Below are positions 2,250 through 6,887 of a stretch of 64,000 nucleotides of DNA, piece by piece (positions within the stretch are counted from its first letter, which is position 1; the number at the start of each line of letters is the position of its first letter). The notes beneath the pieces are model-generated. The model did not search any database. It had not been told where the DNA came from and saw only the letters and a list, made by a program, of their open reading frames with translations. Source of the DNA: Pontiella sulfatireligans (lineage in GTDB: Bacteria > Verrucomicrobiota > Kiritimatiellia > Kiritimatiellales > Pontiellaceae). Location of the stretch: positions 2,914,001-2,978,000 of the forward strand of contig NZ_CAAHFH010000001.1 in NCBI RefSeq assembly GCF_900890705.1, given 5' to 3'. Position numbers and translations under genes: made by a program.

Positions 2250-2747
2250 ATGAAGAAAACCCTGCTGCACATTTTAATGCATAACGGCCGCCTACTCGAA
2301 CGGGCCATCGAAGAAGAGCTCGCTGCCAGCGGCCTGCACCACGGGCAGGGACGTATCCTGATGAACATCCAGCGGGCGTCCGGAATCACCCAGGCTGATC
2401 TAGCTCGCCAGATGGACGTCAAGCCCTCCACCATCACCAACATGCTTAAACCACTGGAACAGAAAAAACTGATTAAGCGGAAAATCGACCCAAAAACAAA
2501 TCGGGCCCAGCTTGTCTCGCTGACCCCCGCCGGCGCAGTCGCCTGCATCAAAATTCAGGGCGCCTGGGACCACGTAGAAACCCGCCTGCAGAAAAAACTT
2601 CCGCAAGACGGACAGGCCGGACTTTTCCAAGGCCTGGAAACCATTTTAACAACACTAGGCGGCACCCTGCCGACAACCGGGAAAGCAGAACGGGGAAAAG
2701 CCCACGCAAACAAAGATAAAGCAACCGCCGCCATCACACCCGCCTAA
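2250..2747 (+). CDS. MarR-family transcriptional regulator
   Basis: The product has 165 residues. It carries a winged helix-turn-helix: GITQADLARQMDVKPSTITN is the helix-turn-helix, followed by LKPLEQKKLIKRKIDPKTNR, the recognition helix exit and beta wing typical of MarR. The extended, Lys/Ala-rich tail after about residue 140 has no recognisable domain. The start is placed at the ATG at 2250, with GGAG about seven bases upstream. It is divergent from the sulfatase at 1-2025 and is followed in the same direction, after 81 bp, by the fused sulfatase gene at 2829. Inference: it is a local repressor or ligand sensor for one or both sulfatase genes, probably acting through the palindromes at 2066 and 2222. 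The ligand is unknown; MarR proteins usually sense small phenolics or redox state. Confidence 0.88.
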   Translation: MKKTLLHILMHNGRLLERAIEEELAASGLHHGQGRILMNIQRASGITQADLARQMDVKPSTITNMLKPLEQKKLIKRKIDPKTNRAQLVSLTPAGAVACIKIQGAWDHVETRLQKKLPQDGQAGLFQGLETILTTLGGTLPTTGKAERGKAHANKDKATAAITPA

Positions 2748-2828: not shown

Positions 2829-5800
2829 ATGAAAACAACTATCATGCTTATCTCAGCCGCCCTCTCAAGCGGTGCACTCGCCGTCCCCTATCCCATTGTT
2901 GATACTGGACAGACCTTTGCATACGGCAACGATAATGGACAGGATGCCCACTATTCCGCCAACGCTCCATCGTATACGGATAACGGCGACGGCACGGTCA
3001 CCGATCAGGTGACCGGTCTGATGTGGACGCAGGATCCCGGTAAAAAAATGACCTTCGACGACGCTATCAAAAATGCATCCCAGTGCAAAACCGGGGGCTA
3101 TTCCGACTGGCGGATGCCCACGATAAAAGAGCTCTATTCGTTGATCCAGCTCAACGGCACCGACCCCGATCCGATGAGCACCGATACCTCCGGGTTGAAA
3201 CCGTTCATCGACGATTCCGTTTTTAAATTTACCTACGGGAAAGAGGAAGACGGCGACCGGATCATCGATTCCCAGTTTGCCACCTGCACCAAATATGTCA
3301 GCACCACCATGGGCGGCAGCGAGACCATGTTCGGCGTCAACTTTGCCGACGGCCGCATCAAAGGCTACCCCATCAAGAGCCGGCGCGGTGAAAAAACCTT
3401 CTATGTGCTCTATGTCCGCGATAATCCGGACTATGGGAAAAACAAGTTCAAAGACAACGGCGACCGCACCGTTACCGATAAAGCCACTGGACTCACCTGG
3501 ATGAAGACCGACAGCGGTAAAGGCATGGACTGGCCGACCGCGTTGGAGTTTGCAGAAGGTTTCGAATTTGCAGGGCACGACGACTGGCGCCTTCCGAGCG
3601 CCAAGGAACTACAGAGCATTATCGACTATACCCGCTCTCCCGACACCACCGGCTCCGCAGCCATTGATCCGATCTTTGATGCCACCGAAATCAAAAACGA
3701 AGGCGGCAAGAAGGACTTTGCGCAATATTGGACCAGCAGCAGCCATCTGAGCACCCGCGGATCGGACACCGCCGTCTACTTTGCCTTCGGCCGCTCGCTC
3801 GGTTTCATGCAGGACCGCCGAACCGGCGAGTACAACTTGATGGATGTACACGGCGCCGGCTCACAGCGCTCCGATCCAAAGGTTGGAGATGCCTCCCAAT
3901 TCCCGCACGGCCGAGGCCCGCAGGGCGATGTGATCCGCATCGAAAACATGGTCCGCCTTGTCCGCGGAGGAAATGTTGAGCAGGTCGACCCACCGGTCGC
4001 CCGCGAAACCAGAATGCGCAAAAGCAGCGGCCAGCAGACCCAGCAGCGACCGGACCGGCAGCAGAGCCGTGGAGGACAGGGCATGAGTTCCGGACAACGC
4101 AGCAGTGGAGGGCAGGCCGCTCGCAGTGCCCAGGGCGGGCGGCCTCGTGACAAAGTTCGTGCACGCGACACGGAATTCAAAGAGAAGTTCCCGGAAGGCT
4201 CAGCGCTGCCGGATTCTCTACAACTTTATAATGTTGATCACGAACGGGTCGCAGCCAACAGCATCTTCAAAGCAGAGTACACGGTGGTTGTGGGCGGCTG
4301 TCTAACTTGCCCCGAATACCGCAATTCGTATCCGGAGATCGAAGCGGTGGCCGCAGACTATCGCGACAAGGGCGTGCAGTTCTACTTTCTGTATCAATCG
4401 CTCACTCACCCGGAAAACTGGGGCTTCGTTCAGCCGACATCACTCCAGGAACGGTTCGCTCAGGTTGAGTACGCGAAAGAGTTGTTGCAGACATCGATCC
4501 CATGGCTGACGGACACGATGGACAACGAGATGAAGCAGTATTTCGCAATGGCGCCGAATGCACAGTTCGTGTTCGACCGCGACGGCGAGATTGTTCATCG
4601 TGACTCATGGGGACGAGGTTCCAGCCTACGGGAGTCGCTGGAAAAACTGGTCGGGCCTTCCGATAAAACCACCACCGTCGCCGATTTGAATCTGCCTCAG
4701 TTTGGCCGCAAAACATCCTCAGCGAACGGGCTGCTCGAACCCCAACGCCTCGACGGAGTGGCTGTACCGCTGCGAGTCGCAGCGGGAGGCGAAGAAGCGA
4801 ACGCAGAAGAGATCAAGTCCAGCGATTTCGGAGAACCCAATCGCTACGTCAAACTTCGTCCGGAAGCGGATCAGCAGCTCATCCAAACCGGGACGGGGCA
4901 GCTCTACCTCGGCTTTCGACAGGATCCGGTGCTGGGAGCGGCCTGGAACAATCTGGCGACACCACCGAAGTATCGTATCACCGCCGGTGGTGCAACAGTG
5001 ACGCCGGCGATGGCAACAGCCCCGGAGCTCAGCGTGGAATCCGATACCGAACCGCGTGAGTTTCTCGTGGACGTAAAAAACTGGAAAGCGGGAAAGCCGA
5101 TTAAGGTGGAGATTCAATATTTCGCCTGCAACAAGGAAAAGGGCTGGTGCGAGGCGGTTGAACAGGAATTCACCGTGTGGCTCGAAGAAGATGCAACAGC
5201 CGGAAAGGTGGCCGGGCGAAGCCACTTCCCCGGAGGCAACAGTCAGGCCGGTCGCGGTGGGCAGGGCCAACCCCAAGGGCAGAGCCAAAGGCGCGGCCCT
5301 CAGGCGCAGGCGGGCTCATCGGCAGATCGGATTTTTTCACGATACGATACGAACGGTGATGGCAAGATTACCAAAGCCGAATTTATAGGGCCGGAACGGC
5401 GCTTCACCATGCTCGATAAAGACAAAGACGGCACCATCACCTGCTCCGAAGCGGAAGCCGCTCCAGCAGCTCCGAACCGTGGAACAGGACAGCGGCAAGG
5501 GAGTGCCCCCCGCCCTTTTGAGCAACCGGCGGACGTTTCCACAAAGGTTTCTGCTCCACCAACAGCAAAGGCCTCGGCAGACAAACCGAACATCGTTTTC
5601 ATCTATGCGGACGACATGGGCTGGACCGGTACCTCCGTTGAAATGATCAAAGGCGACCAAGACACCAGAAGTGATTTTTATCAGACACCGAATCTAGAAA
5701 AAATGGCCGCCAAAGGCATGGTCTTTTCGCAGGCCTACTCCCCCGGACCGATGTGCACACCGAGCCGCGCGGCGGTGCTCACCGGAAAAACCCCGGCCGA

Positions 5801-6887
5801 ACTGCACATCACCACCCCCGGCGGAGGAAGAACAGACGGAACCAAAAAACTGCTCACCCCTAAACCTTCCACTCAGTTGCCGAAAAATCTTCCAACCATT
5901 GGAACCCTGCTGAAGAGCGAAGGCTACGCCACCGCCCTGCTCGGCAAATGGCATATCGGCCGGAACGATGATGCCGGCATGTATGGTTTTGATTTCCACG
6001 ATGGCTCCACCGAAAACGCCAGCAACGGAACCGATGAAGACCCGAAGGAAATTTTCAGCCTGACCGAACGCGGCATCCGGTTCATGGAAGAAAATGTAAA
6101 AACCGGCACCCCATTCTATCTCCAGCTTTCTCACTATGCCGTCCATACCCCCGATCAAAGCCAGCCGGAAAGCATCAGCAAATTTGAAGCGACCGCCCCC
6201 GGCCGCATCCATAAAGACCCCGTCTACGCCGGCATGACCTGGGATCTGGACACCAGCCTGAACCTGATTTTCAAGGCATTGGAAGACCTGAATATTGCAA
6301 ATAACACCTATGTGGTTTTCATGTCCGACAACGGCGCCCCCGGCAATCCGCGGAGACCGCAGAACACCCCGCTCAACGCCGGCAAAGGATCGCTCTATGA
6401 AGGCGGCATCCGCGTTCCCCTCATCATTAACGGCACCGGCATTAAGCCCGGATCCTCCTGCCAGGAAAGCGTTACCGGATGCGATCTCCTTCCGACGTTC
6501 TGCCAATGGGCAGGGATTCCAATCCCCGGCGCCATCGAAGGGTCCAGTCTCGTTCCGCTGCTTGCTGGAAAAAAACTCGAACGAACCGAAAAAACGTTGC
6601 TGTTCCACTACCCGCACTATGGGCAGGGCCCGGCCCAGAAACCGCAGTCCGCCATCATCGAAGGCGATTACAAGCTGCTGAAACTCTGGGAAACTGATAC
6701 TTATCAGCTGTTCGATCTTTCCAAAGACATCGGCGAACAGAACGATCTCTCAAAGTCCAACCCGGAAAAACAAAAAGAGATGGTTGCCCAGATGGAGCAG
6801 CGCCTCAAAGAAACCGGCGCGCAAGTGCCGACCGACAATCCGAACTATGATCCCGACGCAGCGCAACCCCGTCGTCGTAGACGGTAG
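2829..6887 (+). CDS. Multidomain secreted protein: two DUF1566, thioredoxin fold, EF-hands, sulfatase
   Basis: The start is the ATG at 2829 with AAGGAG eight bases upstream; an in-frame ATG at 2793 lacks a ribosome site. The 1352-residue product begins with a signal peptide (about 1-19). Two DUF1566 (Lcl-type) domains follow at about 40-190 and 195-390, each with the GLxW and DWRxPxxKEL hallmarks. A Gln/Arg/Gly-rich linker covers about 395-435. A thioredoxin-fold domain (about 450-625) has a C491-LT-C494 motif; its later TDTMDN and PNAQFVFD segments recall deiodinase-like redoxins. A Cys-containing beta domain follows, then EF-hands near 838 (DTNGDGKIT) and 864 (DKDKDGTIT). The sulfatase occupies 918-1352, with formylglycine Cys 976 in CTPSR and a GKWHIG motif. 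No stop or frameshift interrupts it. It may combine carbohydrate binding, redox chemistry and desulfation. Confidence is high for the domains and low for their joint role. Confidence 0.85.
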   Translation: MKTTIMLISAALSSGALAVPYPIVDTGQTFAYGNDNGQDAHYSANAPSYTDNGDGTVTDQVTGLMWTQDPGKKMTFDDAIKNASQCKTGGYSDWRMPTIKELYSLIQLNGTDPDPMSTDTSGLKPFIDDSVFKFTYGKEEDGDRIIDSQFATCTKYVSTTMGGSETMFGVNFADGRIKGYPIKSRRGEKTFYVLYVRDNPDYGKNKFKDNGDRTVTDKATGLTWMKTDSGKGMDWPTALEFAEGFEFAGHDDWRLPSAKELQSIIDYTRSPDTTGSAAIDPIFDATEIKNEGGKKDFAQYWTSSSHLSTRGSDTAVYFAFGRSLGFMQDRRTGEYNLMDVHGAGSQRSDPKVGDASQFPHGRGPQGDVIRIENMVRLVRGGNVEQVDPPVARETRMRKSSGQQTQQRPDRQQSRGGQGMSSGQRSSGGQAARSAQGGRPRDKVRARDTEFKEKFPEGSALPDSLQLYNVDHERVAANSIFKAEYTVVVGGCLTCPEYRNSYPEIEAVAADYRDKGVQFYFLYQSLTHPENWGFVQPTSLQERFAQVEYAKELLQTSIPWLTDTMDNEMKQYFAMAPNAQFVFDRDGEIVHRDSWGRGSSLRESLEKLVGPSDKTTTVADLNLPQFGRKTSSANGLLEPQRLDGVAVPLRVAAGGEEANAEEIKSSDFGEPNRYVKLRPEADQQLIQTGTGQLYLGFRQDPVLGAAWNNLATPPKYRITAGGATVTPAMATAPELSVESDTEPREFLVDVKNWKAGKPIKVEIQYFACNKEKGWCEAVEQEFTVWLEEDATAGKVAGRSHFPGGNSQAGRGGQGQPQGQSQRRGPQAQAGSSADRIFSRYDTNGDGKITKAEFIGPERRFTMLDKDKDGTITCSEAEAAPAAPNRGTGQRQGSAPRPFEQPADVSTKVSAPPTAKASADKPNIVFIYADDMGWTGTSVEMIKGDQDTRSDFYQTPNLEKMAAKGMVFSQAYSPGPMCTPSRAAVLTGKTPAELHITTPGGGRTDGTKKLLTPKPSTQLPKNLPTIGTLLKSEGYATALLGKWHIGRNDDAGMYGFDFHDGSTENASNGTDEDPKEIFSLTERGIRFMEENVKTGTPFYLQLSHYAVHTPDQSQPESISKFEATAPGRIHKDPVYAGMTWDLDTSLNLIFKALEDLNIANNTYVVFMSDNGAPGNPRRPQNTPLNAGKGSLYEGGIRVPLIINGTGIKPGSSCQESVTGCDLLPTFCQWAGIPIPGAIEGSSLVPLLAGKKLERTEKTLLFHYPHYGQGPAQKPQSAIIEGDYKLLKLWETDTYQLFDLSKDIGEQNDLSKSNPEKQKEMVAQMEQRLKETGAQVPTDNPNYDPDAAQPRRRRR

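Follow-up and report, generated by a model that had tools for sequence, protein, structure and literature searches.

A deiodinase-like redox module and a formylglycine sulfatase on one polypeptide chain in Pontiella sulfatireligans

Introduction

An open reading frame of Pontiella sulfatireligans raises the question of why a redox module and a sulfatase should share one polypeptide, and whether their joining is more than an accident of rearrangement. The window studied here is a stretch of 64,000 nucleotides (RefSeq assembly GCF_900890705.1, contig NZ_CAAHFH010000001.1, positions 2,914,001 to 2,978,000 of the forward strand), and coordinates given without a locus label refer to it. Sulfatases are abundant in this organism: a profile search scored at least 150 matches in the source genome, in agreement with the 480 and 521 sulfatases reported for the genus Pontiella (PMC7356697). 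Fusions of sulfatases with glycoside hydrolases have already been reported in Pontiella in the excerpt of PMC6388578 that we draw on, and the account of Pontiella fusions in that excerpt does not mention a redoxin-sulfatase chain. Literature searches found no paper that joins DUF1566 with planctomycete sulfatases and none that joins 'deiodinase family protein' with sulfatases.

Results and Discussion

Gene structure and terminal domains

An initial annotation had described an uninterrupted, exported protein of 1352 residues with a complete CxPxR sulfatase, and both statements are borne out. The gene (2829-6887, + strand) is a single open frame from ATG 2829 to the stop codon at 6887, and its product begins with a signal peptide recognised by inspection (Table 1). 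ATG 2829 is preferred over the upstream TTG 2793 because the ribosome-binding site AAAAGGAG ends 6 nt 5' of this ATG. On the minus strand at 1-2031 lies a sulfatase with a beta-helix region behind it, which continues past the start of the window. A paralogous cluster consisting of a MarR-like, an Lcl-Lcl-EF and a PQQ-like propeller gene is found a few kb upstream of 2829-6887 (L099, 8250-11494).

Table 1. Features of the gene 2829-6887, its upstream neighbour and related planctomycete loci.
Feature	Position	Strand	Basis
MarR-family regulator, first gene of the conserved cluster	2250..2747	+	Pfam MarR 6e-13
Signal peptide MKTTIMLISAALSSGALA	2829..2882	+	by inspection
First Lcl_C (DUF1566) domain, residues 45-200	2961..3428	+	Pfam PF07603
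Second Lcl_C domain, residues 205-395	3441..4013	+	Pfam PF07603
Deiodinase-like thioredoxin-fold domain, residues 456-595, CxxC = C491/C494	4194..4613	+	Pfam, alignment, model against 4tr3
Probably all-beta domain, residues 640-800, Cys pair C767/C774	4746..5228	+	alignment, model; weakly DsbD-N-like
Approximate putative recombination breakpoint, Gln/Gly-rich linker, residues 812-824	5262..5300	+	similarity switch between parents
Two EF-hand loops DTNGDGKITKAE, DKDKDGTITCSE	5301..5468	+	Pfam EF-hand_1 3e-9
Linker APRPFEQPAD..., common to other EF-sulfatase fusions	5469..5570	+	segment comparison
S1-type formylglycine sulfatase domain, residues 915-1345, CTPSR from C976	5571..6863	+	Pfam, 9fo1 match
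Planctomycete loci with TGA at CxxC	L124, L146-L156, L158-L164		

Two stretches in the N-terminal part match the Lcl_C family of Pfam (E 7e-42, 142.9 bits against a gathering score of 34.9), while a sequence search of the pair against the PDB returned chance matches only. The same domain family forms the C-terminus of the Legionella collagen-like protein Lcl, where it acts as an adhesin domain that binds sulfated glycosaminoglycans (PMC11162425); the 1352-residue chain differs from Lcl by its two Lcl_C copies, by the sulfatase on the same chain and by the absence of collagen repeats. By analogy the two domains are probably sugar-binding, and the occurrence of Lcl_C adjoining or fused with sulfatases suggests a binding module for sulfated glycans, a proposal that is directly testable. 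The EF-hand family is represented by two loops (36.2 bits against a cut-off of 25.4).

The C-terminal domain covers the whole Sulfatase profile (PF00884, positions 1-301 of 301, E 5.6e-45, 154 bits against a cut-off of 25) and contains, besides CTPSR, the metal-binding and catalytic motifs DDMGW, GKWH, SHYAVH, SDNG and GKGSLYEGG, by which it is assigned to the S1 formylglycine sulfatases. Among solved structures it is closest to 9fo1 (E 1.6e-88, 429 aa aligned), that of the exo kappa-carrageenan 4-sulfatase AMOR_S1_16A (PMC11760155), which matches over the full length of the sulfatase and has the same metal and catalytic motifs, but is a stand-alone enzyme. Assignment to subfamily S1_16 was rejected: of the marker residues W79, H125 and H149 (AMOR_S1_16A numbering; PMC11760155) only H125, within GKWH, is kept in the alignment to 9fo1, whereas Pro stands opposite W79 and Ser opposite H149. 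Since two of the three S1_16 markers are thus missing, no particular substrate is assigned to the sulfatase.

It had also been proposed in the initial annotation that the redox module might serve the Cys state of the sulfatase itself. We read this as control of its Cys or disulfide state, for maturation or protection. The common chain and the maturation of the sulfatase from a Cys (C976) speak for this idea, which we nevertheless consider very doubtful because sister sulfatases do without a redox module: at L090, L091, L093, L094, L095 and L097, close sulfatases that share its motif, whether fused or stand-alone, have no such module on the chain or next door. Moreover, the maturation enzymes FGE and anSME are reported for the genus in the excerpt of PMC6388578.

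Redox module

The initial annotation had described a CxxC redoxin-like domain and had asked for a structure prediction of residues 450-790. The CxxC (C491/C494) indeed lies in a thioredoxin fold; the region, however, comprises two domains that had not been separated, a thioredoxin fold at about residues 456-595 and a probably all-beta domain at about residues 640-800. At residues 456-595, the Redoxin and T4_deiodinase profiles of Pfam both match below their cut-offs; the latter, the iodothyronine deiodinase profile PF00837, scores 14.7 bits against 27, and the prokaryotic deiodinase-like model NF038285 reaches 68.9 against 250. Because these curated deiodinase cut-offs are missed, the domain is named deiodinase-like only. 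The prediction was run for residues 441-815 with an alignment of only 12 closely related sequences (the chain and 11 close relatives). It gave a mostly good model of the thioredoxin part (pLDDT mostly 65-90, lower around model residues 84-95), whereas the all-beta part was poorly modelled both alone and in the whole redox module; the model used for its fold comparison has a mean pLDDT of 52. In the PDB the thioredoxin part is matched best by the mouse deiodinase 3 catalytic core (4tr3, E 6.3e-8, TM 0.68 by target length), with other redoxins and thioredoxins scoring nearly as high, and the model thus points to a deiodinase-like fold.

For the all-beta domain, nDsbD chains account for 15 of the 50 best fold matches of the low-confidence model, none of them below E 0.001. 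The Pfam family DsbD_N (PF11412) does not match here at E <= 1, and searching the PDB with a profile of the domain found nothing but a chance match to a ribosomal protein. Given the low pLDDT, the fold matches above E 0.001 and the silent DsbD_N profile, we treat the likeness to DsbD-N as a lead rather than a result.

Both cysteines of the CxxC (C491, C494) and the pair C767/C774 are invariant in 12/12 aligned close homologues. Among the matches listed for the planctomycete family, at least one in-frame TGA occurs in 51 of 77. Twenty loci chosen for an in-frame TGA, together with L124-L126, yielded 19 distinct loci with a readable motif, and in each of these 19 the TGA coincides exactly with the position of the second Cys of the CxxC (GCLTUPPF), which makes C494 the probable reactive residue. 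The TGA probably encodes selenocysteine; Sec forms of bacterial deiodinase-like proteins are known (PMC1088965). The planctomycete relatives would then provide a sizeable group of probable selenoproteins from a single family, which also has a Cys-pair domain of its own. Most of the planctomycete TGA loci keep a pair of the C767/C774 type, and this conservation, together with the position of the TGA, speaks for the two Cys sites acting as partners. The prokaryotic deiodinase-like proteins (NF038285; Sec and Cys forms of PMC1088965) likewise have a thioredoxin fold and a reactive Cys where the relatives have TGA; the present chain differs from them in scoring below the curated cut-offs, in its additional domain with a second Cys pair and in its fusion to other modules.

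In paralogues of about 805 aa within the genus the CxxC is replaced by GDLTDP and the second Cys pair is also missing; this joint loss may reflect one clade. Paralogues that have lost both Cys pairs are found at L015-L024 and L027-L032 (Pontiellaceae, mostly about 805 aa), and their architecture is seen at L059, where a beta-helix, the redox module and EF-hands follow each other.

Relatives and mosaic origin

Five relatives (L037, L038, L039, L040, L050) encode a separate Lcl-Lcl-redox-EF protein of 863-891 aa. It has the same Lcl pair and redox module as the product of 2829-6887, with a redox region of 85-92% identity, but stops after the EF-hands, and its sulfatase is the product of a separate downstream gene. 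This sulfatase gene follows 15 bp downstream in L039 and L040, directly abuts the redox-protein gene in L050 and is one gene away in L038. Ahead of the redox-protein gene, L038/L049, L050 and L039 have a gene whose N-terminus resembles that of the MarR-family regulator. At L037/L048 the redox-protein gene is followed by a gene for an Lcl-Lcl-EF-sulfatase fusion of 1023 aa without redox module, so that both parental types are adjacent. Further Lcl-Lcl-EF-sulfatase chains that lack the redox module occur at L090 (947 aa), L094 (943 aa) and L095 (partial); L092 encodes an EF-sulfatase chain, and L091, L093, L096 and L097 have split pairs. Apart from the absent redox module, the Lcl-Lcl-EF-sulfatase fusions present Lcl_C pair, EF-hands, linker and sulfatase in the same order as the 1352-residue chain, with a sulfatase identity of 61-73%.

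Comparison by segments divides the chain between these two types. Its Lcl part is 82-87% identical to four of the redox-protein parents and 74% to L050, whereas its EF-linker part is 54-64% identical to the fusions L090, L094 and L095 as compared to 33-42% to the redox parents, the similarity switching near residue 820. The Lcl tree groups the chain with the redox proteins in a set of seven rows that also contains two Lcl-EF proteins without redox module (support 96/92). The EF tree places it with the sulfatase fusions (88/93) and, among them, with L090 (89/94), and in the sulfatase tree it stands within the same fusion group, without full support. Because the 5' part fits a redox-protein parent and the 3' part fits the Lcl-Lcl-EF-sulfatase fusions, the gene is a mosaic with a breakpoint near residue 820. 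From this mosaic similarity, which is observed directly, we infer the recombination event itself: a single deletion in an L048-like tandem of both gene types would yield gene 2829-6887. As the 3' half is closer to other fusions than to the tandem fusion of L048 (EF 33%, sulfatase 61%), L048 serves as a model of the arrangement and not as the direct parent.

The initial annotation had considered that the parts might prove to be separate genes in relatives and the frame an assembly artefact. The parts are separate in relatives, but we find no artefact, as the EF-linker-sulfatase half matches natural fusions. The full chain has been seen in no other genome, as would be expected if faulty assembly or sequencing had joined two genes; such an error is nonetheless hardly credible, since neither a signal peptide nor a stop codon is left at the junction, other natural fusions have homologous EF-hands and a homologous linker, and the 7.40 Mb genome is assembled in 5 contigs. 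The chain is a real, although so far single-genome, rearrangement of known parts.

Distribution of the redox-sulfatase pairing

The unusual domain order emphasised in the initial annotation was found in the source genome only: scans of about 1,090 genomes with the redox module, in sets that overlap (58 relatives, 388 genomes from the phylum, 392 from the planctomycete phylum, 241 from a planctomycete family and 6 others), and of 58 and 346 genomes with the sulfatase revealed no other open frame that contains both. Placed side by side, the pair is conserved in both Pontiellaceae and Planctomycetota. At each of the five other Pontiellaceae loci with the redox protein, a sulfatase gene is either the immediate neighbour or separated by one gene, and in the planctomycete loci examined a sulfatase gene is divergently close by in 7/7, with an Lcl pair also present in 4/7. 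These neighbourhoods are probably inherited clusters and not independent events. The redox region is 67-78% identical between the phyla, which suggests its horizontal transfer.

These findings bear on the possibility that the fusion is a neutral passenger, in which a deletion joined neighbouring genes whose products continue to work separately, the joining having no functional meaning. Its restriction to one genome, the relatives that manage with separate genes and the sulfatase fusions with other partners already reported in the genus (excerpt of PMC6388578) are all compatible with this explanation, and it has to be taken seriously even though we hold it to be on the unlikely side: two phyla share the redox-sulfatase neighbourhood, neither linker nor frame is disrupted, and every domain retains its key motifs.

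Two further arrangements were seen in these neighbourhoods. A second redox gene lies between arylsulfotransferase-EF and sulfatase genes in the source genome and in G005 (L054, 5771-10280; L052, 5746-10063). YHYH domains (PF14240) adjoin the planctomycete redox gene and are once fused to the neighbouring sulfatase (L041, 1202-4018; L128, 4341-6272).

Mechanistic model

The reading that we favour, with a probability of roughly 0.55, is that of a natural chimeric gene encoding a glycan-tethered sulfatase with an independent two-Cys reductase on board. Two paralogues from the same type of locus, Lcl-Lcl-redox-EF and Lcl-Lcl-EF-sulfatase, would have recombined and thereby joined the redox module to the sulfatase. 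As judged from the respective families, the Lcl_C pair would keep the protein on a sulfated polysaccharide, the EF-hands would bind calcium, and C976 would be matured to formylglycine, enabling the sulfatase to strip sulfate esters. The redox module presumably works as an independent extracytoplasmic reductase: electrons could pass from a DsbD-type donor to C767/C774 and from there to C491/C494, through which the deiodinase-like domain may reduce a thiol, a peroxide or another acceptor near the same glycan. The fusion would thus co-locate two activities that relatives encode side by side. Such a relay is supported by the invariance of both Cys pairs, by their common loss in the paralogues and by the TGA at the second Cys, and a protein with a DsbD_N domain encoded in the source genome is counted in its favour. 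A peroxidase role is less obvious because the described strains are fermentative anaerobes. The occurrence of the chain in a single genome weighs against the favoured reading, as it gives no sign of selection for the fusion.

Alternatively, the two activities might meet on one substrate; the initial annotation had already thought of a sulfated or halogenated one. A bifunctional enzyme, in which the deiodinase-like domain dehalogenates or reduces the sulfated and halogenated (or otherwise reducible) algal substrate of the sulfatase, would be in line with a fold nearest to deiodinase 3, with the TGA codon at the reactive position in relatives and with the second redox gene of the genome standing between arylsulfotransferase-type and sulfatase genes. 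We consider it improbable, however, because bacterial deiodinase-like proteins have been suggested to be general redox proteins (PMC1088965), deiodinase-like domains have further fusion partners here, an amidohydrolase and an esterase, and the T4_deiodinase score is below the family cut-off. Formulated for the module as such, the idea that a selenol- or thiol-based deiodinase-like reductase and its relay domain act on the sulfated algal substrate of the sulfatase, for instance by reductive dehalogenation, is unlikely. If it were correct, marine Pontiellaceae and Planctomycetota would share a conserved system that works outside the cell, and the present chain would be the one natural fusion that reveals the coupling.

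The chain links three protein families whose roles in the sea are poorly known, namely Lcl_C domains, bacterial deiodinase-like redoxins and the vast sulfatase sets of the PVC bacteria, and the redox-sulfatase neighbourhood conserved in two phyla hints that the use of sulfated algal material may include a reductive step. Fusions of EF-hand and deiodinase-like domains to other partners are present in the source genome at L062 (6562-9801) and L063 (7123-8778), where the pair of partners consists of an amidohydrolase and a BD-FAE esterase.
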